Of a stretch of DNA of 53,912 bases, positions 23,263 through 44,235 are shown in pieces. This stretch comes from a virus. The stretch is taken from the IMG/VR virus record IMGVR_UViG_3300025138_000052, positions 1 to 53,912 of that record; one strand, given 5' to 3'. Below the pieces are notes generated by a model, which was given only the letters and a program-made list of their open reading frames with translations, was not told the origin of the DNA and did not search any database. Both the position numbers and the translations under genes were made by a program. Numbering within the stretch: the first letter of the stretch is position 1; every line of letters starts with the position of its first letter.

Positions 23263-23300
23263 TTGACACAAGATATATAATATCCTATATCTATTGTCAA
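23263..23300. promoter_or_regulatory. Overlapping divergent promoter pair
   Basis: Forward: TTGACA (23263-23268), 17 bases, TATATC (23286-23291). Reverse: TTGACA (23300-23295), 17 bases, TATATC (23277-23272). The two -10/-35 sets overlap, with near dyad symmetry. An ATCCTA box is at 23282-23287. The forward start would fall about at the ATG at 23300, and the reverse start about 23 bases upstream of ATG 23242. Confidence 0.7.
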
Positions 23301-30639: not shown

Positions 30640-31007
30640 TGTTTTTAATAGACACTTATTTAGATAAAAGCAAAATACAAGGTATAGGAGTGTTTGCAAA
30701 TGAAAACATAAAAAAAGGTCAATTGATAAAAGAAGTTAGACCAGATTTTGAAATAGAATTTAATAAAGATAACCTTCCTAAAATACCTTTGGCTCTTGCA
30801 AAATTTATTGACACGCACGGTTATGAAAGAGAGTTGGGATCTAAAATTTTAGTTATGGGAATTGATAATGAAAAATATTTAAATCACAGTAAGGATCCAT
30901 CAGTTAATGATGAGGGTATTGCCTTAAAAAATATAAAAATAGGCGACGAAATAACTATAGACTATAGGGAATTTGATGATAGCATTGAAAAATTATGTCT
31001 TACTTAA
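30639..31007 (+). CDS. SET-domain protein (lysine methyltransferase-like)
   Basis: A 122-residue minimal SET domain: QGIGVFANENIKKGQLI for the first strand and SAM pocket, YLNHSKDPS for the NHS motif, IKIGDEITIDYREF for the catalytic DY. The post-SET cysteine cluster is absent. SET enzymes methylate lysines on proteins; targets could be phage or host DNA-binding proteins. Directly after the polymerase (TAATG) and overlapped by the next gene by 13 bases. Confidence 0.75.
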   Translation: MFLIDTYLDKSKIQGIGVFANENIKKGQLIKEVRPDFEIEFNKDNLPKIPLALAKFIDTHGYERELGSKILVMGIDNEKYLNHSKDPSVNDEGIALKNIKIGDEITIDYREFDDSIEKLCLT

Positions 31008-33276: not shown

Positions 33277-33404
33277 TGGCTAAGACTAAAGGAGACGAGT
33301 TTACACCTAGAACAAAAAACCGTAAACGTCCGGGAAGACACACAAAAAGCCTTAATAAAAGCCAAAAATTGAGCTATAAAAAATATCGAGGACAAGGGCG
33401 TTGA
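33276..33404 (+). CDS. Small basic protein, 42 aa
   Basis: MAKTKGDEFTPRTKNRKRPG, then RHTKSLNKSQKLSYKKYRG. Very basic, overlapping the previous stop (TAATG). Its last codons contain the -35 of the next promoter. The RPGRHTKSLNKS motif is conserved in related phages as far as I recall. Probably nucleic-acid binding. Confidence 0.55.
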   Translation: MAKTKGDEFTPRTKNRKRPGRHTKSLNKSQKLSYKKYRGQGR

Positions 33405-33429
33405 CAATTATCATATAATATCCTATAAA
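33401..33429 (+). promoter_or_regulatory. Sigma-70 promoter with 10-bp spaced boxes
   Basis: TTGACA (33401-33406), 17 bases, TATAAA (33424-33429). Within it ATCATA (33410-33415) and ATCCTA (33420-33425) are 10 bp apart. The -35 overlaps the end of the previous gene. Confidence 0.7.
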
Positions 33430-33450
33430 TAAAACATGAAAGGAACTTAT

Positions 33451-33666
33451 ATGATAAAAGAACTAATAACATACAATCGTGGATTAAAAAACTTTGTTGA
33501 AGGAAAAATAATCCAATACATGGGAATACCATTTGAAGAACAAAATTCAGAACCTTTGTTTAACATAATTAATAAATATTTAGACGAAGCAGAAATCATA
33601 CAACTAAGAATAAATACTCTAGAAAGGATGGCCGATGTCGCAAAGAAAAGTAACACTAGTTTGTAA
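33451..33666 (+). CDS. Small helical protein, 71 aa
   Basis: MIKELITYNRGLKNFVEGKI, then a helix-rich remainder with NKYLDEAEIIQLRINTLER. ATG 33451 has AAAGGA at 6 bases; an ATG at 33436 sits only 6 bases after the -10 and would be leaderless. No known function. Overlaps the next gene by 32 bases. Confidence 0.5.
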   Translation: MIKELITYNRGLKNFVEGKIIQYMGIPFEEQNSEPLFNIINKYLDEAEIIQLRINTLERMADVAKKSNTSL

Positions 33667-33823
33667 GAATATATCACAAAAACAGTGGTCTAATCTTATC
33701 TTAGAATTGAACCTGATGAAAAAAGCCTGGGCTCCTTACGCAGGAATAAATATAGAAGGACACGGGATCAAGAAAATAATTGATTGGGGCACGAATAGTA
33801 CTTCTGAAAAATATAAAGTGTAA
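33635..33823 (+). CDS. Small phage protein, 62 aa
   Basis: MSQRKVTLVCKNISQKQWSN, then LILELNLMKKAWAPYAGINI, GIKKIIDWG. The LxLNLMKKAWxxYG and GIKKIIDWG blocks are recurring in other marine phage proteins that I recall. Ribosome site GAAAGGAT is within the preceding gene. Basic; function unknown. Confidence 0.5.
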   Translation: MSQRKVTLVCKNISQKQWSNLILELNLMKKAWAPYAGINIEGHGIKKIIDWGTNSTSEKYKV

Positions 33824-34042
33824 ATGAAAGAATTAATTATACTTATTTTAATGTATGACGGCACGTTAATACATCAAAAATTAACATTACCACCTATAAA
33901 TATATCTGTTCATGAATGCTTAGAATTCTCAGATAAATACAGAGAACGCCATAGTATTTATAAAACATTTGAGGACCCTAAAAAAAATGGGCATTATTTA
34001 AAAGATGGTAGAGGGACTATTCAAGGTTTTATATGCCAGTGA
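33824..34042 (+). CDS. Small exported-like protein, 72 aa
   Basis: MKELIILILMYDGTLIHQKL, with SVHECLEFSDKYRERHS and DGRGTIQGFIC. Hydrophobic N-terminus is only weakly signal-like. It begins immediately after the previous stop. The HECLEF...GTIQGFIC pattern with two Cys is typical for a family in marine phages with no known function. Confidence 0.5.
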   Translation: MKELIILILMYDGTLIHQKLTLPPINISVHECLEFSDKYRERHSIYKTFEDPKKNGHYLKDGRGTIQGFICQ

Positions 34043-34052
34043 ATATAAAAGA

Positions 34053-34087
34053 TTGACATTACAGTTATATAGGATATATCCTATATT
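34053..34087 (+). promoter_or_regulatory. Promoter with perfect 20-bp palindrome (operator)
   Basis: TTGACA (34053-34058), 16 bases, TATATC (34075-34080). Superimposed is the perfect palindrome 34067-34086: the half ATATAGGATA followed by its complement TATCCTATAT. TAGGAT and ATCCTA are thus back to back. The ribbon-helix-helix gene begins 28 bases later, so this looks like an autoregulatory operator. Confidence 0.75.
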
Positions 34088-34114
34088 ATATAAACAAATG
34101 AAAGAGGTAAACAA

Positions 34115-34288
34115 ATGACCGATATAACTAAATATAAAAATATATCTTTAAAACATATAGACTATAATCTGATCGATAAAATAAGAAGGGTTTTAGTTCC
34201 TAATATGATTCTAAGTAGATCACAAACAGTAAGCATTATTATTAATGAGAAAGCGAAGAAATTAAATGGAAAACTTAAAAAAGCCTAA
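34115..34288 (+). CDS. Ribbon-helix-helix type regulator, 57 aa
   Basis: Start ATG 34115 with AAAGAGG upstream. MTDITKYKNISLKHIDYNLI, DKIRRVLVPNMI, LSRSQTVSIIINEKAKKL. The beta strand (NISLKHID), helix A, turn and helix B (SRSQTVSIIINEKAKKL) match the Arc/MetJ/CopG fold, which binds tandem or inverted boxes as dimers of dimers. Directly downstream of the 34067-34086 palindrome. Likely represses or tunes the ATCCTA-box promoters. DNA contact by the N-terminal strand is expected but not proven. Confidence 0.6.
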   Translation: MTDITKYKNISLKHIDYNLIDKIRRVLVPNMILSRSQTVSIIINEKAKKLNGKLKKA

Positions 34289-34457
34289 AGCAATATGCCC
34301 TACGTGTAGGGGAAATGGTTATATTAAAGTACCTTTTGAGTTAACTAGAGAATATGTGACTGCACAATGTACGGTGTGTCATAGTCAAGGTGAGATTGAC
34401 GAAGATAAGATTAAAGATATTGTCATAGACTCAGATGGTTTTCACAGCCTACAATAA
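34266..34457 (+). CDS. Small DnaJ-type zinc finger protein, 63 aa
   Basis: CPTCRGNGYIKVPF and CTVCHSQGEIDEDK are the CxxCxGxG half-repeats of DnaJ zinc fingers. Overlaps the regulator by 23 bases and the next gene by 1 base (TAATG). No J domain. Possibly binds nucleic acid or protein clients. Confidence 0.65.
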   Translation: MENLKKPKAICPTCRGNGYIKVPFELTREYVTAQCTVCHSQGEIDEDKIKDIVIDSDGFHSLQ

Positions 34458-34714
34458 TGAAAAAGGTATTTAAAGTGAGTGAAGAAGATATAAAAAGAAT
34501 ACAGGAACAACAAAGAGGACCCTTGGATTTAGAACAAAGGATCGAGGACCTTATCAAACAAAAAGAATATTTGCAGTTCCAGTGTCGTAAGGCAGCGACG
34601 GCGATACTAGAGCAAGAAGTTAAATATAACTCTTTAGTTAAAGAGTTTGATAAATTAAATGAAGAAAATGATAATTTAAAAATTGTACTTTCTAATCAAA
34701 AGGATGCCAAATAA
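34457..34714 (+). CDS. Coiled-coil protein, 85 aa
   Basis: Nearly all coiled coil (EEDIKRIQEQQRGPLDLEQR, IEDLIKQKEYLQFQC, KEFDKLNEENDNLKIVL). Starts at the TAATG overlap with the zinc-finger gene; ends overlapping the nuclease start. No enzyme motif. Possibly a dimerising partner for the adjacent zinc finger or nuclease. Confidence 0.55.
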   Translation: MKKVFKVSEEDIKRIQEQQRGPLDLEQRIEDLIKQKEYLQFQCRKAATAILEQEVKYNSLVKEFDKLNEENDNLKIVLSNQKDAK

Positions 34715-35024
34715 AAAACAAATAAAAGGTGAGCGTGCTGAGCTAATTGCTGCTGAGTATTTTATGGATTTAGGATATTTAGTAGCTCGTAACATGTCGA
34801 GTAATGGCACCGTTGATTTAGTCTTAGTGGACGAAGATGATACAGGAGGAATTATTTTAGTAGATGTAAAAGCTTTTTCGGTTCGAGCTAAAACTGGATG
34901 GAAAGTTGGTAGAGTTCTTACTGACAAACAAAAAAAATTAAACGTACAATTAATTTTTGTTAACTTGGATACTAAAAAAGTATCTTTTGATCATATAGAT
35001 ATGGATAGAAAGGATTTAAATTAA
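34704..35024 (+). CDS. PD-(D/E)XK nuclease-like protein
   Basis: A 106-residue protein: GERAELIAAEYFMDLGY (E at the start of the helix), GTVDLVLVDEDDTGG (catalytic D), then ILVDVKAFSVRAKT (D-x-K). This is the pattern of small Holliday-junction or VSR-like nucleases. ATG 34704 is preferred to TTG 34683. Likely resolves or trims phage DNA. Confidence 0.65.
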   Translation: MPNKKQIKGERAELIAAEYFMDLGYLVARNMSSNGTVDLVLVDEDDTGGIILVDVKAFSVRAKTGWKVGRVLTDKQKKLNVQLIFVNLDTKKVSFDHIDMDRKDLN

Positions 35025-35031
35025 AACTATT

Positions 35032-35175
35032 ATGGGTACCAATCCAGTAGCAAAGCACTTAAATAAGTTTAACAAGCCGAAGAGGATTGAAGACAAACGT
35101 TATAAAAAACAAATAAAAAGAATGATGAAAGAGTTACAAGAACAACAGGAGGCATATAAAAAACAATATGAGTAG
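35032..35175 (+). CDS. Small basic protein, 47 aa
   Basis: MGTNPVAKHLNKFNKPKRIE, then DKRYKKQIKRMMKELQEQQE. A basic helix-forming peptide starting 7 bases after the nuclease. Its stop lies within the next gene (8-base overlap). Conserved pattern MGxNPVAKHLNKFNKPK recalls a small marine phage protein. Function unknown. Confidence 0.55.
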   Translation: MGTNPVAKHLNKFNKPKRIEDKRYKKQIKRMMKELQEQQEAYKKQYE

Positions 35176-35389
35176 AGAAAAAGGACGTAAATGGGACGGC
35201 AGATCTAGAATTCCTGATGATACCTACCGGAAAAATTGGGAAGATATTTTTAATTGTACTAAAGAAAAAAAGAAAAAACAATATAATGATTTTGATTCTT
35301 TTGATTCTAATTGGAGTACTTCTTATAAGGAAAAAGAATTAGATCCTGAGTCTCAAGAATATATTGACAGTTTAAAAGATAAACTATAA
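35168..35389 (+). CDS. Small phage protein, 73 aa
   Basis: MSREKGRKWDGRSRIPDDTY, then a highly charged tail with KEKKKKQYNDFDSFDSNW. MSREKGRKWDGRSRIP is a recognisable motif in related phages. It overlaps the preceding tiny gene. The function is unknown. Confidence 0.6.
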   Translation: MSREKGRKWDGRSRIPDDTYRKNWEDIFNCTKEKKKKQYNDFDSFDSNWSTSYKEKELDPESQEYIDSLKDKL

Positions 35390-35416
35390 ACTATAATTAG
35401 AAAGTGAGGAATAACT

Positions 35417-35599
35417 ATGAGTAATACATACACAGATAAGTTTAAAGAAGATCTATTTGAAAATCTATTGGAAGAAATACAGGAAAGATGTTTTGTAGGA
35501 TTAGATGCACTTGATGAACCTGTCTTTTCAAAAACGGATGAAGAAATTGAAGTAGAGGCTTCTGAGTTAGTAAATAATTTAGAAGTGGAACTTGAGTAA
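35417..35599 (+). CDS. Small acidic protein, 60 aa
   Basis: MSNTYTDKFKEDLFENLLEE, then IQERCFVGLDALDEPVFSKT with a strongly acidic C-terminus. GTGAGGA ribosome site. Acidic small phage proteins can mimic DNA or inhibit host enzymes, but no such family is recognised here. Confidence 0.5.
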   Translation: MSNTYTDKFKEDLFENLLEEIQERCFVGLDALDEPVFSKTDEEIEVEASELVNNLEVELE

Positions 35600-35730
35600 T
35601 TACAGAATAGAACGTGGGAGATTTCCTATGGGGATAGTGGTAGGTTCCTGACAATTAATGTCGACGTTGGTTCGGGGCCTTCGTTCTTGTTTTTTTTACC
35701 CGTTAAATTAACTACTACCACAACTAACCT
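35600..35730. other. Non-coding gap of 131 bases
   Basis: No gene longer than 8 codons. It has a T8 tract (35690-35697) after a G+C-richer stretch (GGTTCGGGGCCTTCG). GTGGTAG near 35640 could pair with CTACCAC near 35717. I do not see a full tRNA or a clear terminator hairpin, but a small structured RNA is possible. Confidence 0.3.
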
Positions 35731-35904
35731 ATGAAAAAGAAAATATATACTAAAGAAACGTACAACAAGATTTTGCTGATACATAGCCAGTGGATGAAAA
35801 AAAATGAATATGATAATTGGAAAGAATGTGAGCGAGCAAGTAAAGACCGATTGAAATTGAGTTTTGCAGATAGAGTTAAGAAGCCGAATAATGTTAATAA
35901 ATAA
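35731..35904 (+). CDS. Small basic protein, 57 aa
   Basis: MKKKIYTKETYNKILLIHSQ, WMKKNEYDNWKECERASKDR. Basic, helical, overlapping the RecB-like gene by 14 bases. No obvious ribosome site (CTAACCT). No family recognised; overlap and context support it. Confidence 0.4.
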   Translation: MKKKIYTKETYNKILLIHSQWMKKNEYDNWKECERASKDRLKLSFADRVKKPNNVNK

Positions 35905-36571
35905 ACTTTATCAATACCCTAAGTCTATGCGTTCTGTGGTTAATGGTGGCAGACACTATGATATAGACGGTGATAAATTACCGAGCGTGACTACGATACT
36001 TTCAGCTTGTCAGACGGATGAAAAGAAAGCTTCTCTTGCAGCCTGGAAAGCTAGGTTGGGAGAAAAAGCTGCGGATGAGGTCAGGGATACTGCAGCCACT
36101 CGTGGAACCGCTATGCACACGTTTCTAGAGGGATATATTGACGGCACCGGGCACATGGACCTAACACCCCTGGGTAGACAAGCGGCTGTCATGGCCAACA
36201 AGATTATAGAACAAGGGCTCGGGGACCTGGAAGAAGTGTGGGGGCAAGAAGTAACTTTATATTACCCTGACCTCTATGCAGGGGCCACGGATATTGTAGG
36301 CATATATGATGGACAACCTGCAATTGTAGATTTTAAACAAAGCAACAAACCAAAAAGAAGAGAGTGGATAACTGATTATTTTGAACAGCTAGCAGCTTAT
36401 GCAATGGCACATAATCAAGTCTATGATACTAAAATACAGTCTGGAGTCATTTTAATGTGCACAAAAGATTATCTATTTCAGAAGTTTGAGGTGTCTGGAA
36501 TGGAATTTGTAAGGCATAAACACTCTTTTTTACGTAAAATAGACCAATATTATAAAATTGTATCTTCTTGA
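35891..36571 (+). CDS. RecB/Cas4-like PD-(D/E)XK exonuclease
   Basis: A 226-residue protein. TRGTAMHTFLEGYI, YAGATDIVGIYDGQPAIVDF (catalytic D), then DFKQSNKP (K of the D-x-K), and YFEQLAAYAMAHN (QxxxY) make the RecB-type nuclease. It likely digests host or phage DNA ends during recombination and replication. Start ATG 35891 is chosen because the core YQYPKSMRSVVNGGRHYDID follows at once. Upstream TTG 35864 is possible. Confidence 0.8.
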   Translation: MLINKLYQYPKSMRSVVNGGRHYDIDGDKLPSVTTILSACQTDEKKASLAAWKARLGEKAADEVRDTAATRGTAMHTFLEGYIDGTGHMDLTPLGRQAAVMANKIIEQGLGDLEEVWGQEVTLYYPDLYAGATDIVGIYDGQPAIVDFKQSNKPKRREWITDYFEQLAAYAMAHNQVYDTKIQSGVILMCTKDYLFQKFEVSGMEFVRHKHSFLRKIDQYYKIVSS

Positions 36572-36800
36572 AAAGACCCTCCAGATACAATTATTGATCA
36601 ATGAAGTCAGTAAAACTGCGGGTTATAGGCGATTTAAATAATTGTATACTGATTTCTGTATAAAAAATAAAAAACTTTTTTATTTTTTTTTAAAACAGGG
36701 TACAAAAGGTACAAAAGCTAGAATTGTTATATACCAACACTTATTCGCTCAAATTTGTATCCTGGAGCAGGATACAATTGGATACAAAAGATACAATTGT
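36557..36800. repeat. GATACAA iteron-like repeat region
   Basis: The 325-base gap 36572-36896 has no convincing gene. GGTACAAAA occurs at 36699-36707 and 36708-36716 (9-bp period); GATACAA at 36594, 36771, 36781 and 36790 (9-10 bp periods), and the complement TTGTATC at 36755 and near 36557. TTGTATCCTG (36755-36764) and CAGGATACAA (36768-36777) form a perfect 10-bp inverted repeat with a 3-base loop. Resembles initiator- or regulator-binding iterons. Confidence 0.5.
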
Positions 36801-36882
36801 ACTAAAAACATAACAATACCAACGACTTAAGGGGCGCGAGACAACTTTTTTACATTTTTCAAATGAAAAATATCTGAGAGAA

Positions 36883-36891
36883 TGTTATACT
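36883..36891 (+). promoter_or_regulatory. Extended -10 promoter
   Basis: TGTTATACT gives an extended -10 (TG-n-TATACT) 5 bases before ATG 36897. No good -35 is visible. The transcript would begin at or next to the start codon. Confidence 0.45.
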
Positions 36892-36896
36892 AACGT

Positions 36897-37232
36897 ATGA
36901 TTAAATCTAGGAGTAAGAAAAGAAAAACAAAGAACAAAAAAATAATACCCCTTAATTCTAAAGCCTCCACAGACGATATATCCAGGTACCCTTTCGTTGA
37001 AATAGAATGGTTTGATATTGAGTCAGATGCAAACTGGGTCGAAACAAAAGATTTAAGTGTAACAAAATTACCTCTATGTGTTTCAACAGGATATTTATTT
37101 AGTCAAAAGAAAGGTGTTACAAGAATTTTTTCTGATTATATTAAATCAAAAAACAAACCCACATTTGAAAATATTAGTGGAACAACAATAATACCTACTT
37201 CTGTTATTCAGTCGATTCGGAAGATTCGTTAG
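36897..37232 (+). CDS. Conserved phage protein, 111 aa
   Basis: Very basic N-terminus (RSKKRKTKNKKII), then SRYPFVEIEWFDIESDANWV, CVSTGYLFSQKKGVTRIFSD and a GTTIIPTSVIQSIRKIR end. The YPFVEIEWxDI...GYLFSQKKGxTRIF pattern is recurrent in phages; its function is unknown. No ribosome site. The last 29 bases overlap, antisense, the end of the small terminase gene. Confidence 0.6.
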   Translation: MIKSRSKKRKTKNKKIIPLNSKASTDDISRYPFVEIEWFDIESDANWVETKDLSVTKLPLCVSTGYLFSQKKGVTRIFSDYIKSKNKPTFENISGTTIIPTSVIQSIRKIR

Positions 37233-37722
37233 TTTCTGGTGCGGTTAAAGATTCTAATCTGTCTTTTTGTATTTCTTTAATACGTTTTATTTCTTCTAAT
37301 TTTTCAGCTCTAGTTAGATCATTTAAATTGCCATGAATATGTATATCCATGAATTGACCGGTTGCTTTACCTATTAAATTCTCAAACCCTAATGCCTTAT
37401 CAATCTTACCTTGTTGTACTAATTTCTCAGATAACACTTGCTGTCTTCTAACATAGTTATTTTTTGTTACTGTAAATGATCTGTTAACTTCATTTGATCT
37501 AGCCTGTAAGTACCTTTGAATTTTTGGGTTTTGCATGAGCTCCGACCCTTCTATTCTAGCTCGTTTAGGTTCGTATCCAGCTTGTATGGCCGCCTCTGTT
37601 CTAGTAGTCCTGCCTTCATTCATGATTAAATACTCACAAAATCTACGCTGCATTTCTGTAAGCTCTATTGGATAAGCCGCCTTTTTCTTGACAATTTCTT
37701 GACTCATACTTGCTTTATACAT
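37204..37722 (-). CDS. terS: Terminase small subunit
   Basis: A 172-residue protein: LTEMQRRFCEYLIMNEGR, TEAAIQAGYEPKRARIEGSE, LMQNPKIQRYLQAR are the helix-turn-helix part typical of Terminase_2. The C-terminal half is coiled coil. It binds the packaging site and recruits TerL, which lies 5 kb away and on the other strand. Start ATG 37722 is close to a -10; ATG 37707 is an alternative. Confidence 0.75.
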   Translation of the reverse strand: MYKASMSQEIVKKKAAYPIELTEMQRRFCEYLIMNEGRTTRTEAAIQAGYEPKRARIEGSELMQNPKIQRYLQARSNEVNRSFTVTKNNYVRRQQVLSEKLVQQGKIDKALGFENLIGKATGQFMDIHIHGNLNDLTRAEKLEEIKRIKEIQKDRLESLTAPETNESSESTE

Positions 37723-37755
37723 AATATCTTATATAAACACAATATATGAAAGCAA
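37710..37755. promoter_or_regulatory. Symmetric divergent promoters between terS and 37746
   Basis: Forward: TTGCTT (37710-37715), 16 bases, TATAAA (37732-37737), 8 bases to ATG 37746. Reverse: TTGCTT (37755-37750), 16 bases, TATAAG (37733-37728), 5 bases to ATG 37722. Each -35 lies inside the opposing gene. Both messages would be almost leaderless. Confidence 0.55.
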
Positions 37756-37973
37756 AAGAATTAAGACAATATTTAGACAAATTCTTAACATCTCCCGCAG
37801 CTCAACAAGCTAGAGTTCAGTTTGAATTACCTAATGGTGAAAAATTAGACCTGTACGAAATTCAATTATTGGAAACTAGAATAATTGGTGATAGAGACAC
37901 GCACATTTTAAATTTAAAAGGAATTAAAAGAGGCGGCACTTGGAAGATGCCAAAGATTATCTCTAAATTATAG
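37746..37973 (+). CDS. Small phage protein, 75 aa
   Basis: MKAKELRQYLDKFLTSPAAQ, then QVQFELPNGEKLDLYEIQ-like beta segment and GIKRGGTWKMPKI. Resembles small 'MTIKELREYLD' proteins of unknown function in many phages. ATG lies 8 bases after a -10 with no ribosome site. Followed by the nuclease gene after 11 bases. Confidence 0.5.
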   Translation: MKAKELRQYLDKFLTSPAAQQARVQFELPNGEKLDLYEIQLLETRIIGDRDTHILNLKGIKRGGTWKMPKIISKL

Positions 37974-37984
37974 CAGAGGTTACC

Positions 37985-38422
37985 TTGGCTAAATTAGAGA
38001 AAGATTTGTGGTGTGAAGTTAAAAAATTTAAGAGCAAGATTAATTGGACAAGGCTGGAAAACCGTTGTTTATTTGGGACTCCTGACGTACTGGGTTACAA
38101 TAATAATGGACACTTTTTTCTTGTAGAGCTGAAGGTAACATCAGGTAACAAAATACGCTTTTCACCCCACCAAATAGCCTTTTTCGTACGTCATCCAAAA
38201 AACTCATTTGTCCTTGTTGCCCGGTCCCAGAAACCAGAACCAGGTTCAGAACCAGGTTCAGGAAAAAACAAAAATCGAAAAACAGGGCGGGCCCACCCTA
38301 AGCTTGTGCGCTTGTACCCTGGTTCCAGGATCCTGGAGCTTGTAGACTTAGGCCTCCAGCTTGAACCCTTGGCTTGTGGGCTTGAGGACTGCTTCGCCTT
38401 GCTTGAGGGCTTGGGAGCTTGA
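37985..38422 (+). CDS. VRR-NUC/resolvase-like nuclease with repeat insertion
   Basis: A 145-residue protein from a TTG start with AGAGG 5 bases upstream. LENRCLFGTPDVLGYNNNG (D), HFFLVELKVTSGNKI (E-x-K) and FSPHQIAFFVRHPKNSFVLV form a PD-(D/E)XK nuclease. Residues about 79-100 (KPEPGSEPGSG, then TGRAHP) come from G+C-rich repeat DNA, including one 15-bp element in frame. The remainder (LVRLYPGSRILELVDLGLQL) looks like the native end of the family. Confidence 0.65.
   Translation: MAKLEKDLWCEVKKFKSKINWTRLENRCLFGTPDVLGYNNNGHFFLVELKVTSGNKIRFSPHQIAFFVRHPKNSFVLVARSQKPEPGSEPGSGKNKNRKTGRAHPKLVRLYPGSRILELVDLGLQLEPLACGLEDCFALLEGLGA
38285..38299 (+). repeat. G-rich near-palindrome, copy 1 (in CDS)
   Basis: GGGCGGGCCCACCCT, inside the nuclease gene, in frame (encodes GRAHP). 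Symmetric about GGGCCC except at position 4 (C opposite A). Confidence 0.8.
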
Positions 38423-38430
38423 CGACTTAC

Positions 38431-38445
38431 GGGAGGGCCCACCCT
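38431..38445 (+). repeat. G-rich near-palindrome, copy 2
   Basis: GGGAGGGCCCACCCT followed by a T tract to 38452, 8 bases after the nuclease stop. Preceded by GCTTG repeats. Confidence 0.8.
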
Positions 38446-38452
38446 TTTTTTT

Positions 38453-38474
38453 AAGCTTGCACCCTTGCAAGCTT
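38453..38474. terminator. Stem-loop, candidate terminator between convergent genes
   Basis: AAGCTTGCA (38453-38461) and TGCAAGCTT (38466-38474) form a perfect 9-bp stem with loop CCCT. It lies between the rightward nuclease gene and the leftward GP88-like gene, and could stop transcription, though it has no typical U tract of its own. Confidence 0.45.
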
Positions 38475-38540
38475 GTGGCCCAGCCCCCTGGCGGTTTATT
38501 ATTTTCATTGATTATTTTGATTAGATTTTTAAGTTTCATA

Positions 38541-39152
38541 TTAATGAACCCCGTAAGCTATGTTTTTGATATCAGGGTCCCAGCAATTTCTACAATCTCC
38601 ACAATTGCCGCCTTGAGTTGGAGCCGGGCAGGTTGCATCTTTCGTTACTACGGTTGAAGTATTGCTCCAGGTACCAGCGGATGGCTGGTCGATCATAGTC
38701 ATAGATAAACGAATAATCAAATTTTTTGGGCATCTGGTTAAATGGTCCTTGATCCAGGCTTCTCGAGTTGGCATCCAATGCTGCATATCAGGCGTTAACC
38801 TACAAACGGCAAAAATTTTGTTTAGGTGGTCCAGGTCCTGGACGTCGCCGGCATCGTGCCATCTGAAAACTTTATGCTTTGAAACGGCTTCAGAATTAAT
38901 TACAACGGCCATAGCCTCCACCCATAACGGGTTTTTTATAGACTCAAGCCTTTTATATTGTGCTTGTACAATTGCAGGGAATCTTACATAATTATTTTTT
39001 AATGCATAGCAGCCCTCGCAAACGCTGTTAGGAATCAACCTAAGTTTGGCACCCGTTTTACATTCCGCTGCCGGGATCCCGTAAGCATAGCCCGGCATTT
39101 TCTCCGGCTTGCTCAATGATACTATTATTTTTTTTGCTTCTTTTATATTCAT
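38541..39152 (-). CDS. GP88-like cysteine-rich phage protein
   Basis: A 203-residue protein. MPGYAYGIPAAECKTGAKL, SVCEGCYALKNNYVRFP, VFRWHDAGDVQDLDHLNKIF and a C-terminal cysteine set (CPAPTQGGNCGDCRNC) match the GP88 family of phage proteins, which is widespread and of unknown activity; Cys spacing suggests a metal or Fe-S centre. Leftward gene with its own promoter (39208-39180). The C-terminal reading in other frames here is shadow. Confidence 0.7.
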   Translation of the reverse strand: MNIKEAKKIIVSLSKPEKMPGYAYGIPAAECKTGAKLRLIPNSVCEGCYALKNNYVRFPAIVQAQYKRLESIKNPLWVEAMAVVINSEAVSKHKVFRWHDAGDVQDLDHLNKIFAVCRLTPDMQHWMPTREAWIKDHLTRCPKNLIIRLSMTMIDQPSAGTWSNTSTVVTKDATCPAPTQGGNCGDCRNCWDPDIKNIAYGVH

Positions 39153-39179
39153 GTTTTTATATCCTTTTGATTTATATTC

Positions 39180-39208
39180 ATCCTACAATATCCCAGAACC
39201 CCTGTCAA
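39180..39208 (-). promoter_or_regulatory. Leftward promoter with tandem boxes
   Basis: On the minus strand TTGACA (39208-39203), 17 bases, TAGGAT (39185-39180). On the plus strand ATCCTA (39180-39185) and ATCCCA (39190-39195) are 10 bp apart. Drives the GP88-like gene. Confidence 0.65.
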
Positions 39209-39230
39209 GCTTGAACGCTTGCAGCCTTAC

Positions 39231-39245
39231 GGGAGGGCCCACCCT
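39231..39245 (+). repeat. G-rich near-palindrome, copy 3
   Basis: GGGAGGGCCCACCCT, end of the first tandem unit. Confidence 0.85.
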
Positions 39246-39271
39246 GAGAGCTTGAACGCTTGCAGCCTTAC

Positions 39272-39286
39272 GGGAGGGCCCACCCT
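39272..39286 (+). repeat. G-rich near-palindrome, copy 4
   Basis: GGGAGGGCCCACCCT, end of the second tandem unit, followed by seven more T. Confidence 0.85.
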
Positions 39287-39304
39287 TTTTTTTAAAAAAT
39301 TTTC

Positions 39305-39333
39305 CCGCATCAGTTGCATAGCAACCAATGCGG
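39305..39333 (-). terminator. Two-part stem-loop, leftward terminator
   Basis: CCGCAT/ATGCGG outer stem, a CA/CA internal loop, GTTGC/GCAAC inner stem and an ATA loop. On the minus strand it comes 22 bases after the stop of the 39356 gene and is followed shortly by an A4T6 tract, so it should end the leftward operon. TTTT also follows on the plus strand. Confidence 0.6.
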
Positions 39334-39355
39334 TTTTCCAACAGATTGGAATTCA

Positions 39356-39613
39356 TTAATCTAGAAGCGTGTAATATTGCTCAGTAAAATGGACCTGGAA
39401 CCAATGGATCCCCTTCCTTACAATATCATAATCTTCAGCTAGTTCAGCCTCCTTGATGGTGTCGTATACCGCGACCGCGTAACGGGGCAGCTCGCAGGAC
39501 TCACCGCTGTAAGGGTTGGTAACCTCCTCCATCCCAAACTTAGATGCTGGATCAGTCATCATAATTTTAAAGGGCAGCTTTTCAGCTGGTTTAAATATTT
39601 CTTTTAGTTTCAT
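39356..39613 (-). CDS. Small phage protein, 85 aa
   Basis: MKLKEIFKPAEKLPFKIMMT, then CELPRYAVAVYDTIKEAELA, GIHWFQVHFTEQYYTLLD. The aromatic C-terminus resembles a recurrent family in marine phages. ATG overlaps the upstream stop (ATGA), with GGAGGT as ribosome site. Third gene of the leftward operon. Confidence 0.6.
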   Translation of the reverse strand: MKLKEIFKPAEKLPFKIMMTDPASKFGMEEVTNPYSGESCELPRYAVAVYDTIKEAELAEDYDIVRKGIHWFQVHFTEQYYTLLD

Positions 39614-39780
39614 AGATTACCTCCTTGTATATCTTCAATCGTTGAATCATTATTTAAAGCTAAAATAATTTTTTCTTTTAAATTAGCGCTATCCTCCTGA
39701 ATACCTTCAGGAGGGGGCTCGTCTATGTTACAGTCTAGCCAGGTTAACACCATGTCAATGATGGCTTTTTCTTTAGTCAT
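39610..39780 (-). CDS. Small acidic protein, 56 aa
   Basis: MTKEKAIIDMVLTWLDCNID, EPPPEGIQEDSANLKEKIIL, ALNNDSTIEDIQGGNL. ATG 39780 with GGAGGC upstream; TGA overlaps the next ATG. Helical and acidic. Translation coupled to both neighbours. The function is unknown. Confidence 0.65.
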   Translation of the reverse strand: MTKEKAIIDMVLTWLDCNIDEPPPEGIQEDSANLKEKIILALNNDSTIEDIQGGNL

Positions 39781-39928
39781 TTTTAGCCTCCTTATTTTTG
39801 AGCATCTCTAATCTAGCATCTATTTCTTTAATGCTGTTTTGACTCTCAATGATTACTTTCATTAAGGCTATTTTATAGCAGTACAACTCGATTTGATTAC
39901 TGTCTTTTGTAACAAGTTCAACTTTCAT
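39773..39928 (-). CDS. Small helical protein, 51 aa
   Basis: MKVELVTKDSNQIELYCYKI, ALMKVIIESQNSIKEIDARL, ending EMLKNKEAKND. A helical protein with AGAAGGG upstream. First gene of a leftward operon, overlapping the next by 8 bases, under the promoter at 39984-39958. Similar heading to other marine phage helical micro-proteins. Confidence 0.6.
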   Translation of the reverse strand: MKVELVTKDSNQIELYCYKIALMKVIIESQNSIKEIDARLEMLKNKEAKND

Positions 39929-39957
39929 TTTTTTCCCTTCTGTTTAATTAGATCTTC

Positions 39958-39984
39958 AGTATAGGATATTATAGGATCTGTCAA
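39958..39984 (-). promoter_or_regulatory. Leftward promoter with tandem boxes
   Basis: On the minus strand TTGACA (39984-39979), 15 bases, TATACT (39963-39958). TAGGAT at 39962-39967 and 39972-39977 (plus strand) are 10 bp apart. Short spacer is unusual. Confidence 0.6.
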
Positions 39985-40003
39985 CTATTTATTTTCCCTG
40001 GTC

Positions 40004-40012
40004 TGTGGATAA
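40004..40012 (-). promoter_or_regulatory. DnaA box
   Basis: TGTGGATAA, exact complement of the DnaA consensus TTATCCACA, 16 bases before G-rich element copy 5. In the divergent gap between leftward and rightward operons. Confidence 0.6.
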
Positions 40013-40028
40013 CTCTTAAAAATTATAT

Positions 40029-40043
40029 GGGAGGGCCCACCCT
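40029..40043 (+). repeat. G-rich near-palindrome, copy 5
   Basis: GGGAGGGCCCACCCT, followed by GCTTGAGAGCTTGC. Confidence 0.85.
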
Positions 40044-40065
40044 GCTTGAGAGCTTGCTAATATTT

Positions 40066-40080
40066 GGGAGGGCCCACCCT
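40066..40080 (+). repeat. G-rich near-palindrome, copy 6
   Basis: GGGAGGGCCCACCCT, followed by GCTTGCAGCCTTAC. Confidence 0.85.
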
Positions 40081-40102
40081 GCTTGCAGCCTTACTATTAT
40101 CT

Positions 40103-40117
40103 GGGCGGGCCCACCCT
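40103..40117 (+). repeat. G-rich near-palindrome, copy 7
   Basis: GGGCGGGCCCACCCT followed by an A8 run. Copies 5, 6 and 7 are spaced by exactly 37 bp. Confidence 0.85.
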
Positions 40118-40161
40118 AAAAAAAATAAATTTAAATGCAACTATAAAGTGAAAAAATAGAC

Positions 40162-40190
40162 TTGACATATATCCTACAATATCCTATAAG
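40162..40190 (+). promoter_or_regulatory. Sigma-70 promoter with tandem ATCCTA
   Basis: TTGACA (40162-40167), 17 bases, TATAAG (40185-40190). ATCCTA at 40171-40176 and 40181-40186, 10 bp apart. Drives the rightward operon. Confidence 0.75.
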
Positions 40191-40212
40191 AAATACGGTT
40201 GCAAGGGTGGTC

Positions 40213-40290
40213 ATGAAAGACGGCAAAGTCGAGGGTAGCCCGAAATTGTGTTTTGAAAAACTTTCACATAAGAAACACGGCAACCACTAA
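40213..40290 (+). CDS. Leader peptide, 25 aa
   Basis: ATG 40213 after AAGGGTGG. MKDGKVEGSPKLCFEKLSHK then KHGNH. The leader runs from the promoter to ATG 40310, flanked by GGTTGC near 40198 and GCAACC near 40280, which could pair. It may be an attenuating peptide, or chance; no family is known. Confidence 0.35.
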   Translation: MKDGKVEGSPKLCFEKLSHKKHGNH

Positions 40291-40309
40291 ATAAACAGAA
40301 AGGAAAAAA

Positions 40310-40894
40310 ATGAAACCAATACGATCAAATGAACTAGAATTTTTTAAAGAATTAATTAATTCTAAATTCACAGATAAACAACGGTCACTTGATACTGAAA
40401 TAAACATTGAGGCAGAAAAGCTATCCGATAAAAGAAAAGGTGCTTTTGCTTCGGAGTGTGGTGTCAGTAAAGAGTTGAAAGCGTTGGAGCAAGCAGATAA
40501 AAAATATAGGGACTTTATAAGAACTAAAGACCAAGCAGAAAGACTACTTTTAGATAAAGTGGCTTTGATTGGTACTTCCTTGTCCGAGAAGCTAGGACGG
40601 TTGTCCAAGAATAGAGACTGGAACGACAGCTTTCACGATTTTAGTCCTAAGGAAGACGGCGTTGAATTTTTTATTACACGCCTAGATAATGCTTGTTATC
40701 GAGAAGCAGAAAGACACGTTAAAAAAGGGCATAAGTTATTTAATGCTTTAAAAGAAAAAAAGGACAATTGTAAATTAATTGTTCACACTGGAAGCGACAT
40801 ACAAACCACTGTTCAAACGCTTCAAACTGAAATGGGTAGCGCAGATATAAGGTTATCTATTCCTGATAAACTTTTACAGATAGCTGTAAAATAA
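40310..40894 (+). CDS. Helical phage protein, 194 aa
   Basis: A helical, charged protein (MKPIRSNELEFFKELINSKF, LSDKRKGAFASECG, KEDGVEFFITRLDNACYREA, SDIQTTVQTLQTEMG). AGAAAGGA as ribosome site. No enzyme motif. Its first part resembles 'MKPIRTNELxYF' proteins in related phages as I recall. Ends just before another tandem-box promoter. Confidence 0.5.
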   Translation: MKPIRSNELEFFKELINSKFTDKQRSLDTEINIEAEKLSDKRKGAFASECGVSKELKALEQADKKYRDFIRTKDQAERLLLDKVALIGTSLSEKLGRLSKNRDWNDSFHDFSPKEDGVEFFITRLDNACYREAERHVKKGHKLFNALKEKKDNCKLIVHTGSDIQTTVQTLQTEMGSADIRLSIPDKLLQIAVK

Positions 40895-40898
40895 GCAC

Positions 40899-40932
40899 TT
40901 GACATCCCTATCCTATTGGTTATAGGATAGGG
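40899..40932 (+). promoter_or_regulatory. Promoter with 11-bp inverted repeat
   Basis: TTGACA (40899-40904) then -10 TATAGG or TAGGAT (40921-40928). CCCTATCCTAT (40906-40916) and ATAGGATAGGG (40922-40932) are a perfect inverted repeat around 5 bases. A likely operator between -35 and -10. Confidence 0.65.
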
Positions 40933-40952
40933 TAACAACAGAAAGGTAAAAA

Positions 40953-41126
40953 ATGAACGATAAAAAAGCAGAAGCATTAGTTGATATTATGGCTAAGCAA
41001 AATAAGTTAATACTTTCAACTAGAGAACGATTAATTATATTAGAGCAAAAAAACAGAGCCCTAACTATTTTTACAGTGGTGTTATCTTTTTGCTTAATCA
41101 TTGGATTGGGGGTTATCAATGGTTAA
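40953..41126 (+). CDS. Small membrane protein, 57 aa
   Basis: MNDKKAEALVDIMAKQNKLI, then a helix and a C-terminal transmembrane segment (ALTIFTVVLSFCLIIGLGV). GAAAGGT ribosome site. N-in/C-out tail-anchored shape. Overlaps the next gene by 8 bases. Function unknown. Confidence 0.6.
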   Translation: MNDKKAEALVDIMAKQNKLILSTRERLIILEQKNRALTIFTVVLSFCLIIGLGVING

Positions 41127-41322
41127 TGGTGAAAGATTTATTATTACTTACTATGCTAAAAAGCATGGTAAGTTTGTCGATAGGCGCGGAACGTGGGATT
41201 TGAAATGCCGTTATTGGTTTTCAAAAACTATGCAACCATTAGTAACTTATTTTGATTTAGACGCTAATAGTTATAGGACTGCTTCGGGTTCGTATAGAGT
41301 GAAACGGGGACAAGATGTATAG
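41119..41322 (+). CDS. Small phage protein, 67 aa
   Basis: MVNGERFIITYYAKKHGKFV, DRRGTWDLKCRYWFSKT, FDLDANSYRTASGSYRV. An aromatic, basic beta-type protein; 'YFDLDANxYRtA' is a recurrent motif in small marine phage proteins. Start at 41119, within the preceding gene; a TTG at 41101 is less likely. Function unknown. Confidence 0.55.
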   Translation: MVNGERFIITYYAKKHGKFVDRRGTWDLKCRYWFSKTMQPLVTYFDLDANSYRTASGSYRVKRGQDV

Positions 41323-41440
41323 TTTAACATCTCTAATAGCTATTGCTCTATTTACCTTTGGTATATTTGTAATAGCTTTGTGTATGCTTCTAAATCATTT
41401 AGAGGATATTAACTATCAAGAAAGGAAAGGAAAACGATGA
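41315..41440 (+). CDS. Small membrane protein, 41 aa
   Basis: MYSLTSLIAIALFTFGIFVI, ALCMLLNHLEDINYQERKGK. One or two transmembrane spans, short charged tail. Starts inside the preceding gene and overlaps the next one by 4 bases (ATGA). Function unknown. Confidence 0.55.
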   Translation: MYSLTSLIAIALFTFGIFVIALCMLLNHLEDINYQERKGKR

Positions 41441-41595
41441 AAAAAATAAAATCATGGGCTATCGTTGTTGAGTGGGTTGAGAGGGTAGATGATAACGAAA
41501 CTTGGAACACAGAAACTATTACAGAAATTCCAAATGATGTTTCTCAACCAATAGATGATTGGTTAACTGAATATGAAAGTGAGGAAAACAAATGA
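41437..41595 (+). CDS. Small acidic protein, 52 aa
   Basis: MKKIKSWAIVVEWVERVDDN, then NTETITEIPNDVSQPIDDWL, TEYESEENK. ATGA overlap at both ends, with AGGAAAGGAAAACG upstream. The last 6 residues (ESEENK) recur in the next gene and are encoded by the repeated junction sequence. Confidence 0.6.
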   Translation: MKKIKSWAIVVEWVERVDDNETWNTETITEIPNDVSQPIDDWLTEYESEENK

Positions 41596-41747
41596 AACGA
41601 ATAAAAATATATGTTGAGGGTGGTGTAGTGCAAGATGTTATTTTTGAAGGGTTAATAAAAGATGAAGAAATGACTTATGAAGTTATTGACTATGATGAAA
41701 TAGACGCTACAAAAAATAAAAAAACAGAAAGTGAGGAAAACAAATGA
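41592..41747 (+). CDS. Small acidic protein, 51 aa
   Basis: MKRIKIYVEGGVVQDVIFEG, LIKDEEMTYEVIDYDEIDAT, ending KNKKTESEENK. Beta-alpha-like with an acidic middle. Same junction as the previous gene (GTGAGGAAAACAAATGA). Overlaps by ATGA at both ends. Confidence 0.6.
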   Translation: MKRIKIYVEGGVVQDVIFEGLIKDEEMTYEVIDYDEIDATKNKKTESEENK

Positions 41748-41953
41748 AACTAAAAACAGAAACATTTGAAATGACTGTGAAAGATAAAAAAGTAGAAGTC
41801 ACTCATCAAGGATTTAAATCATTCAAGGAACAGAAAGAAGGTTTAAACCAAGTAAAGGAGTGTATAGAAGAATCTATTAGTCAGGAAGAAAAGAAAGACG
41901 GATTTATTCCCTATAATAACTTTGAGTGTTCAGTTAGTTGGAAGTTAATATAA
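41744..41953 (+). CDS. Small phage protein, 69 aa
   Basis: MKLKTETFEMTVKDKKVEVT, HQGFKSFKEQKEGLNQVKEC, FECSVSWKLI. Beta start then helix. Last gene of the ATGA chain. A large stem-loop begins 6 bases after its stop, likely ending transcription or protecting the RNA. The function is unknown. Confidence 0.6.
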   Translation: MKLKTETFEMTVKDKKVEVTHQGFKSFKEQKEGLNQVKECIEESISQEEKKDGFIPYNNFECSVSWKLI

Positions 41954-41958
41954 TTTAA

Positions 41959-42002
41959 ACTACATCTAGTATGTCAAGCATTATCTACATACTAGATGTA
42001 GT
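41959..42002. terminator. Perfect 15-bp stem-loop downstream of micro-gene operon
   Basis: ACTACATCTAGTATG (41959-41973) pairs fully with 41988-42002 around a 14-base loop. The stem is AT-rich and there is no U tract directly after; G-rich element copy 8 with T8 follows 24 bases on. Terminator or RNA-stabilising structure. Confidence 0.5.
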
Positions 42003-42005
42003 GGC

Positions 42006-42014
42006 TTGTGGATT
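42006..42014 (-). promoter_or_regulatory. Near-consensus DnaA box
   Basis: TGTGGATTA, one mismatch to the DnaA box complement, 11 bases before G-rich element copy 8. Confidence 0.4.
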
Positions 42015-42025
42015 AAAATTTTATT

Positions 42026-42040
42026 GGGCGGGCCCACCCT
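42026..42040 (+). repeat. G-rich near-palindrome, copy 8
   Basis: GGGCGGGCCCACCCT followed by seven more T. Confidence 0.85.
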
Positions 42041-42057
42041 TTTTTTTATTTAAGAAG

Positions 42058-42066
42058 TTATCCACA
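42058..42066 (+). promoter_or_regulatory. DnaA box
   Basis: TTATCCACA, a perfect DnaA consensus, 17 bases after G-rich element copy 8. Confidence 0.6.
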
Positions 42067-42095
42067 GACCGATGAAAATAAAATTAAATTAGTTC

Positions 42096-42123
42096 TTGTT
42101 TATCCTATTAGATCCTATATAAC
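42096..42123 (+). promoter_or_regulatory. Promoter-like site with tandem ATCCTA
   Basis: Weak -35 TTGTTT (42096-42101), 16 bases, TATAAC (42118-42123). ATCCTA at 42102-42107 and 42112-42117 are 10 bp apart. Confidence 0.5.
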
Positions 42124-42150
42124 TTTACTTAACAACAGAAAGGAAAACAA

Positions 42151-42501
42151 ATGCCACTAGAAGTACACTACGTAAACGACAAATCTTGGAACCCGGAAAC
42201 TGAAAAGTTTGACGATCCAAAATTAAGAAATGAGGCGGATGATATTGGTCACATATTAATGTTGATTGGTATTACTGAGGTAACTGATCAGACAATCCCA
42301 GAGATCATAATCAGAAGCATGATTTTGGACAGGGTGTATAATAACAAGGAAAGAAAACCTGAAGTGTTCACTGCTCCTTTACAAAGACACATAGGTTTAA
42401 AAATTGAGGGAAAATGGGCGGGCAACGAGACTCGTTGGAAGTTCACATCTCGTATTGCCAAAGGTATGATGCATGATATTGCTAACACGGTGTTGAACTA
42501 A
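42151..42501 (+). CDS. Conserved phage protein, 116 aa
   Basis: MPLEVHYVNDKSWNPETEKF, NEADDIGHILMLIGITEVTD, VFTAPLQRHIGLK, RIAKGMMHDIANTVLN. Helical and soluble with no recognised enzyme motif. AAAGGAAAA ribosome site under a tandem-box promoter. Similar 'TIPEIIIRSMILDRVYN' proteins exist in marine phages. Followed by a strong hairpin. Confidence 0.5.
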   Translation: MPLEVHYVNDKSWNPETEKFDDPKLRNEADDIGHILMLIGITEVTDQTIPEIIIRSMILDRVYNNKERKPEVFTAPLQRHIGLKIEGKWAGNETRWKFTSRIAKGMMHDIANTVLN

Positions 42502-42508
42502 CCCAGCT

Positions 42509-42534
42509 GGGGGTATGTAGAAAGGCATACCCCC
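42509..42534. terminator. Hairpin after 42151 gene
   Basis: GGGGGTATG (42509-42517) and CATACCCCC (42526-42534) form a perfect 9-bp stem with an 8-base loop. Starts 8 bases after the stop. No U tract. Confidence 0.55.
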
Positions 42535-42564
42535 ACATATAGTGTCTATCACTTTATAGTTGTA

Positions 42565-42573
42565 TGTGGATAA
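42565..42573 (-). promoter_or_regulatory. DnaA box
   Basis: TGTGGATAA, complement of the consensus DnaA box, 9 bases before G-rich element copy 9. Confidence 0.6.
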
Positions 42574-42582
42574 AAGAATACT

Positions 42583-42597
42583 GGGCGGGCCCACCCC
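42583..42597 (+). repeat. G-rich near-palindrome, copy 9
   Basis: GGGCGGGCCCACCCC, differing only in the last base. The rightmost copy, upstream of terL. Confidence 0.8.
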
Positions 42598-42674
42598 CAA
42601 TGTATGTAGTATTCAATAGAGGTACCAGACCGATCCATTACAAGTATTGACTTTATAAAAGTCGACCCCCCTTT

Positions 42675-42703
42675 TTGACAGATAGGGATCCTAAGCCTAG
42701 TAT
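42675..42703 (+). promoter_or_regulatory. Promoter for terminase/head genes
   Basis: TTGACA (42675-42680), 17 bases, TAGTAT (42698-42703). No clear tandem ATCCTA, only one GATCCTA (42688-42693). The leader is about 45 bases to terL. A hairpin GACTTT/AAAGTC (about 42649-42662) precedes it. Confidence 0.6.
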
Positions 42704-42756
42704 ATATAGACTAATACACATAGTTAAGGTAAAAGTTTTGAAAACATATTAATAAT

Positions 42757-44235
42757 ATGCAAAAAAATATTACAAAAAATTTAGATGGATTGACTCCAGA
42801 TGAAAGTGCTAAATTACTAGAGCTTGAACGCAGCGTTGCTTTAGATGAGGCTCGCCCAAATATTACAAAAAATTTTTTAAGTTTTGTCAAATATGTTTGG
42901 CCAGAATTCATTGAAGGTTCTCACCACAAAATTATTAATAAAAAATTTAACGATTTGGCTAAGGGTAAGATCAAACGTCTTATTATCAATATGCCACCAA
43001 GACATACCAAATCAGAATTTGCATCCTATCTATTACCTGCATGGATGATTGGAAAAAACCCAAAGCTAAAAATTATTCAAGCTACTCACACAGCAGACTT
43101 AGCCATTGACTTTGGACGTAAGACCAAGAACTTGGTTGACCAAGATGATTATAAAGAACTTTTTGAAACCAGACTACAGGAAGATAGTCAGGCAGCAGGG
43201 AAATGGAAAACCGATCAAGGAGGTGAATACTTTGCAGCCGGTGTAGGTGGAGCAATCACGGGTCGTGGTGCCGATTTATTGATTATTGATGACCCACATA
43301 AAGAACAAGATATTAGAGCTGACAGTAAAGCTTTTGAAAAAGCTATGAACTGGTATACGGCTGGTCCACGTCAACGTTTACAACCTGGTGGAGCTATCGT
43401 TATTGTAATGACAAGATGGTCTACCAAAGATGTAACCGGACAATTATTAAAAGCACAGAGTGAAGAAGGATCAGATCAATGGGATGTAGTGGAATTACCA
43501 GCCCTGCTCCCCGATGGAAAACCCGTGTGGCCTGAGTTCTGGACGGCGCAAGAATTACTTAAGACGAAAGCATCTATTCCAGTTACTAACTGGAATGCAC
43601 AATACATGCAACAACCGACCGGGGACGAGGGAGCTTTAATTAAAAGAGAATGGTGGAAAGACTGGACTTCCAAATATCCACCGCCAACCGAATATATTAT
43701 TCAATCTTATGACACCGCGTTTACCAAAGGAACCAAATCAGATTACAGTGCTATTACCACTTGGGGTGTTTTTACCACGGAAGAGGGTGGACAGAATTTA
43801 ATATTGATGGATGCTTTTAAAGCTCGATATGAATTTCCAGAGCTTAGACGTTTTGCTTATCAACAATATTTAGATTGGAAACCGGATATGGTAATCATTG
43901 AAGCCAAAGCTTCGGGTCTACCTTTAACCCATGAGCTTAGACAAATGGATATCCCTGTTATTAACTTCACTCCTTCACGTGGAAATGATAAACATGTACG
44001 TGTGAATTCTGTTGCACCTTTATTTGAATCTGGTAAGATATGGGCTCCAATGCATGAACATTTTGCTCAAGAGGTAGTTGAGGAATGTGCGTCGTTCCCT
44101 TTTGGGGAACATGATGACTATGTAGATAGTACCACACAGGCGATCATGCGTATTAGACAGGGTGGTATGGTTCGACATCCTGAAGATTATAAAGATGAAC
44201 CGGTAGTAAGAGGCGAAATAAAATATTATGGTTAA
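42757..44235 (+). CDS. terL: Terminase large subunit
   Basis: A 492-residue motor/nuclease. ATPase: Walker A PPRHTKS (80-86), Walker B LLIIDDP (174-180), and an arginine-rich RWSTKD near 220. RNase H-like nuclease: QSYDTAF (D319), MVIIEAKASG (E382), and HDDYVDS (452-458). Cuts and pumps concatemeric DNA into the prohead with TerS (37204, other strand). Weak ribosome site. The next gene overlaps its end by 8 bases. Confidence 0.92.
   Translation: MQKNITKNLDGLTPDESAKLLELERSVALDEARPNITKNFLSFVKYVWPEFIEGSHHKIINKKFNDLAKGKIKRLIINMPPRHTKSEFASYLLPAWMIGKNPKLKIIQATHTADLAIDFGRKTKNLVDQDDYKELFETRLQEDSQAAGKWKTDQGGEYFAAGVGGAITGRGADLLIIDDPHKEQDIRADSKAFEKAMNWYTAGPRQRLQPGGAIVIVMTRWSTKDVTGQLLKAQSEEGSDQWDVVELPALLPDGKPVWPEFWTAQELLKTKASIPVTNWNAQYMQQPTGDEGALIKREWWKDWTSKYPPPTEYIIQSYDTAFTKGTKSDYSAITTWGVFTTEEGGQNLILMDAFKARYEFPELRRFAYQQYLDWKPDMVIIEAKASGLPLTHELRQMDIPVINFTPSRGNDKHVRVNSVAPLFESGKIWAPMHEHFAQEVVEECASFPFGEHDDYVDSTTQAIMRIRQGGMVRHPEDYKDEPVVRGEIKYYG

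Follow-up and report, generated by a model that had tools for sequence, protein, structure and literature searches.

The window, by which we mean the whole 53,912 nucleotides of IMG/VR virus record IMGVR_UViG_3300025138_000052, carries short ATCCTA boxes that recur at exactly 10 bp in its promoter regions. We propose that a phage-encoded repressor of the ribbon-helix-helix (RHH) type, which would also control its own gene, binds these ATCCYA boxes and probably occludes about seven to nine host-type early promoters. The boxes keep a fixed spacing, are placed in promoters, are conserved in relatives, are absent from structural genes and co-occur with the regulator gene.

Phage identity

The terL of the window has 64% identity with its counterpart in Pelagibacter phage HTVC027P, and gene order is common to the two; on these sequence grounds we classify the window as a HTVC023P-type pelagiphage, a relative of known SAR11 viruses. 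Megablast of the box region against phages gave no matches. Contigs with genes of the P0001 family, to which the 57-aa regulator belongs, are also included in SAR11 single-cell assemblies. One phage protein encoded in the window (30639-31007) contains a SET domain (Pfam PF00856, E 2.6e-9), which is unusual for a phage.

Boxes and promoters in the window

Exact direct ATCCTA pairs at 10 bp occur three times in the window and in none of the shuffled sequences, namely at 39962/39972 (minus strand), 40171/40181 (plus) and 42102/42112 (plus). With at most one mismatch there are five such pairs, compared to a shuffle mean of 0.35 (maximum 3 in 60 shuffles), and all five lie in non-coding DNA between genes. 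Two near pairs have one mismatch each (33410 is ATCATA and 39190 is ATCCCA), inverted pairs are present at 34070/34078 and 40910/40923, and every box coordinate given by the sequence-only reading, including the single box at 23282, proved correct. When up to three mismatches were allowed, 64 pairs were counted against 65 and the window had no excess, so the claim is good for close matches only. Non-coding DNA makes up 7.6% of the window and contains 14 of the 41 exact boxes, where 3.1 are expected. ATCCTA was chosen by eye, and higher fixed-spacing pair counts are reached by simple-sequence 6-mers, so independent genomes provide the real test.

The boxes had been described as sitting between -35 and -10 or over the -10. 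This is the case for nine of the ten non-coding promoters with a perfect TTGACA, which have a box in the spacer or at the -10; it fails for the pair at 42102, which has no TTGACA. Upstream of the ORFs at 33436-34042, a TTGACA-17-TATAAA promoter (33401..33429, plus strand) holds the pair 33410/33420 in its spacer, the first box being ATCATA. The promoter of the regulator gene follows (34053..34083, plus), with inverted boxes at 34070-34075 (minus) and 34078-34083 (plus) over its -10. On the minus strand, the promoter of 38541-39152 (39180..39208) has the pair 39180/39190 in the spacer and over the -10 TAGGAT, and the promoter of its HTVC027P ortholog gp33 (54%) is likewise boxed. The leftward cluster 39928-39356 is preceded by a minus-strand promoter (39958..39984) with the exact pair 39962/39972, and a TTGACA-17-TATAAG promoter before 40310-40894 (40162..40190, plus) has the exact pair 40171/40181 in its spacer. 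Convergent boxes at 40910 (plus) and 40923 (minus) occupy the promoter before 40953-41953 (40899..40928, plus). Lastly, the exact pair before ORF 42151-42501 (42102..42117, plus) is accompanied by a -10 TATATA, and it is TTCTTG, not a TTGACA -35, that stands 17 bp upstream of it.

In the replication module, two face-to-face promoters (23263 on the plus and 23300 on the minus strand; 23263..23300) enclose the single box 23282-23287. Such overlapping promoters with one common box are kept in some relatives; loci L313, L314, L319 and L353 contain face-to-face TTGAC..TATAGAACATCCTATA..GTCAA with one box, roughly 950 bp ahead of the gp03 homologue. In HTVC027P the promoter at 388, directly upstream of gp02, is boxed. 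Since boxed promoters were found upstream of the replication module in only about one third of the relatives scanned, some of them probably by chance, this feature is not universal. Separate from the ATCCTA boxes, a cluster of TGTATCC/GGATACA words (TTTGTATCCTGGAGCAGGATACAATTGGATACAAAAGATACAA) at 36755-36800 is perhaps the site of another regulator.

Conservation of the pair in related phages

Related IMG/VR contigs were chosen either by the regulator gene or by terL. The regulator-chosen set, 80 loci kept from at least 518 relatives (868 kb, with the regulator's own promoter left out), contains 29 distinct direct ATCCYA pairs at 10 bp and 0-3 at other spacings. In the 6 kb upstream of terL in the terL-chosen loci (203 kb), 35 distinct pairs at 10 bp were found and at most two at any other spacing, and 10 bp is the only enriched spacing of ATCCYA pairs in related contigs. 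The 504 kb of terL and downstream structural genes of the terL-chosen relatives contain no 10-bp pair at all. Pairs are thus not equally frequent inside genes, nor are they missing from related phages, and the sequence-only claim of a phage regulon linked to promoters, its pairs invariably 10 bp apart, is borne out, since relatives keep the pair and gene interiors are without it.

Promoter context points the same way. Scanning the collection for TTGAC with a 10-bp pair gave at least 120 matches compared to 13 for an 11-bp control, the regulator gene being nearby in nine of these 13. In an unbiased count of 6-mers after non-coding TTGAC, ATCCCA ranked first and ATCCTA third; 163 of 469 TTGAC sites were boxed, against 10 for a control box. 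Among 57 distinct pairs, about 20 lie away from any TTGAC; the remainder keep to a few fixed offsets from it, occur in both orientations and fall within the spacer or near the -10. Because the distance from TTGAC to the pair takes only few values and both orientations occur, the pair resembles an operator and not a core promoter element. In seven long relatives the boxed TTGAC sites number 2-8 ahead of terL and 0-1 beyond it. Some of the counts are raised by homology between promoters, as an unrelated control 6-mer occurred in 36 of 61 regulator upstream regions.

The cultured relatives HTVC027P and HTVC023P and the genome 023Pt_psg01 have boxed promoters, and strict ATCCYA pairs at 10 bp were absent from the 30 kb read of these three. 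HTVC010P and HTVC011P, SAR11 phages of other types, had neither pairs nor boxed promoters. Judged from the contigs compared, this control system appears to be common to hundreds of related ocean viruses.

The putative regulator

The regulator gene (34115..34288, plus strand) encodes the 57-aa putative RHH protein P0001, which has relatives in IMG/VR and an ortholog in HTVC027P, gp21 (60%). P0001 itself gave no Pfam matches in a profile search. Its ortholog in 023Pt_psg01 matches Pfam RHH_1 with E 0.0023 and 18.3 bits, below the gathering cut-off of 20.5, and distant family members have weak matches to PHROGs 'Arc-like repressor' families. Structure models of P0001 contain helices at 14-27 and 35-50; as a monomer the protein forms no N-terminal strand in them. 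In Foldseek searches, PDB and viral models yielded weak matches and no confident RHH, and a profile search of PDB sequences retrieved no RHH chains. When the model was re-aligned to the Foldseek candidates, the five rows at Z>=2 were TraM, an antitoxin, Arc, a putative transcription factor and omega (1irq), with Z 3.2-4.5 and a top Z of 4.5. Another structure comparison placed the MazE-mt1 complex on top (Z 3.3). Support for the RHH fold is thus modest, and P0001 is a putative, probably RHH-type, protein.

Three lines of evidence connect P0001 to the boxes, as the sequence-only reading had supposed when it named the RHH protein as binder: its position, the site in its own promoter and its co-occurrence with the pattern. 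The inverted pair over the -10 of its own promoter (34070/34078) is also present in most relatives: ATCCYA occurs in 48 of 61 distinct regulator upstream regions, and in 35 of those 48 as an inverted pair at 8 bp, compared to 7% of random windows. The same operator recurs at several other promoters, where it overlaps the contacts of RNA polymerase. The regulator gene is present in all 11 terL loci whose upstream part exceeds 7.5 kb and in 14 of 17 IMG/VR contigs of at least 16 kb searched for the 10-bp pattern, and it was not found in the two 11-bp control contigs searched. These observations suggest that P0001 would bind the boxes.

The terL leader and expression timing

A division of early and late genes by the boxes had been suggested on the ground that the terL promoter at 42675 lacks the pair. 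This argument fails. The stretch before terL (42675..42703, plus strand) is TTGACA-like and holds an exact ATCCTA at 42688; its TTGACA is unconserved, relatives having GGGATCCTAAG/GGGGTCCCAAG without TTGACA. The box at 42688 is part of a different conserved element that lies outside the regulon, and we rejected 42675 as a late promoter free of boxes. Most relatives, about 30 of the 52 distinct terL loci, have a same-strand 10-bp pair (at most one mismatch) without TTGAC upstream of terL, at a distance of 213-317 bp, so early promoters are not the only places where pairs occur. A box is also present at the replication-module promoter (23282). What stands of the division is that structural genes have no pairs and that two boxed genes of HTVC027P, gp33 and gp34, are expressed early to middle, with transcripts peaking 6-9 h after infection (PMC12753301). 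Both have boxes in their promoters, and their timing fits early firing followed by later shut-off. HTVC027P lacks its own RNA polymerase and relies on the host enzyme; none of its early genes has a known function, and its expression clusters make up a mosaic that lacks an explanation (PMC12753301).

The leader has further conserved features. In L234, L244:114, L288:3404 and other terL loci the -35-less pair is often followed by a TGCA-N5-TGCATA palindrome, and in relatives the pair sits directly after a terminator-like hairpin. The long conserved leader in the window (42600-42757) includes TAGAGGTACCA, CCCCC..AAAGGGRTCCYAAG and a conserved AT-rich stretch ending TTTTGAAAACATATT, and is possibly a packaging site or a late promoter. 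Nine copies of GGGNGGGCCCACCC, mostly intergenic, cluster at 38285-42596 in the terS-terL region (expected 0.03), and many relatives also have copies of this element scattered ahead of terL.

The leader pairs allow for a dual role of the 57-aa protein, which would act as repressor at the early promoters with TTGACA, from box pairs in their spacer or -10, and as activator of the late terL operon by way of the -35-less pair. Lytic SAR11 phages would then obtain an early-to-late programme with host RNA polymerase only. The TTGAC-less pairs, often with the palindrome, argue for this role, as does the window pair at 42102, which also lacks TTGACA. However, the leader pair follows the terminator-like hairpin of the early operon and could be a weak repressed promoter or an element of the packaging region, and the pair in the window is 655 bp from terL and precedes ORF 42151. 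Such a switch would work as lambda CII or phi29 p4 do at other promoters, and we consider it doubtful.

Proposed mechanism and alternative explanations

In the repressor model that we prefer, P0001 dimers would bind ATCCYA boxes, arranged as 10-bp direct repeats or close inverted repeats, at about seven to nine promoters of the host-sigma70 type, either between -35 and -10 or over the -10, and occupied boxes would block host RNA polymerase. After phage entry the early promoters would fire and the repressor would accumulate until it shuts off the boxed promoters together with its own. Since a promoter with consensus -35 and -10 works without an activator, and a site within its spacer or over its -10 blocks polymerase, repression is the likely sign. 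Binding by P0001, repression and timing are the steps that we infer.

It is unlikely that another phage protein or a host regulator binds the boxes and that the RHH gene is a mere target. The phage does encode several conserved small proteins of unassigned function, and binding by P0001 is deduced. Nevertheless, boxes and regulator gene occur together, the gene has a conserved inverted site of its own, and the two SAR11 phages of other types have no boxes. A role of the boxes as operators of a CI-like lysogeny (immunity) repressor seems very improbable. A repressor over nearly all early promoters could maintain lysogeny, and distant members of the P0001 family are found on longer contigs assigned to SAR11 genomes; however, no integrase is present among the window genes scanned and HTVC027P is described as lytic (PMC12753301). 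A function of the boxes as core promoter element for SAR11 host RNA polymerase, which their presence in the spacer and at the -10 of most strong promoters might imply, is already unlikely and deserves hardly any credence, because offset and orientation to TTGAC vary while the pair spacing is constant at 10 bp, and because HTVC010P and HTVC011P do without boxes.

Comparison with known systems

The proposed repressor resembles Arc of phage P22 as a small phage-encoded RHH-type repressor at promoters, a likeness reflected in the weak PHROGs matches and in the re-alignment to Arc. The target of Arc is the ant/arc region of P22; the operators described here are dispersed over seven to nine promoters, and Arc has no significant sequence match to P0001. 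The omega repressor of plasmid pSM19035 is an RHH protein that uses short direct and inverted repeats at several promoters and reads contiguous 7-bp heptads; the boxes in the window differ in being 6 bp long and 10 bp apart, or inverted at 8 bp, and in belonging to a phage and not a plasmid. P2 C and lambda CII are also phage regulators that bind direct repeats, CII being an activator. Direct-repeat binding by omega has been cited before, and the P2 C sites flank a -10; P2 C differs in being a helix-turn-helix protein with repeats 22 bp apart (PMC4752584).

HTVC027P and the HTVC023P-type phages share with the window the gene order, the regulator ortholog (gp21, 60%) and boxed promoters at corresponding genes, but gp21 is annotated as hypothetical. 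A description of the regulator or operator was not found in the pelagiphage papers available outside subscription. HTVC023P-type pelagiphages are widespread in the ocean, and their SAR11 hosts are the most abundant ocean bacteria. A named regulator with a defined operator would offer a testable explanation of gene timing in phages that use host RNA polymerase only, and the operator pattern allows prediction of early genes from sequence in uncultured relatives. Repressor regulons encoded by phages are already known; what this case adds is the protein family, the operator pattern and the host group, each of them new.
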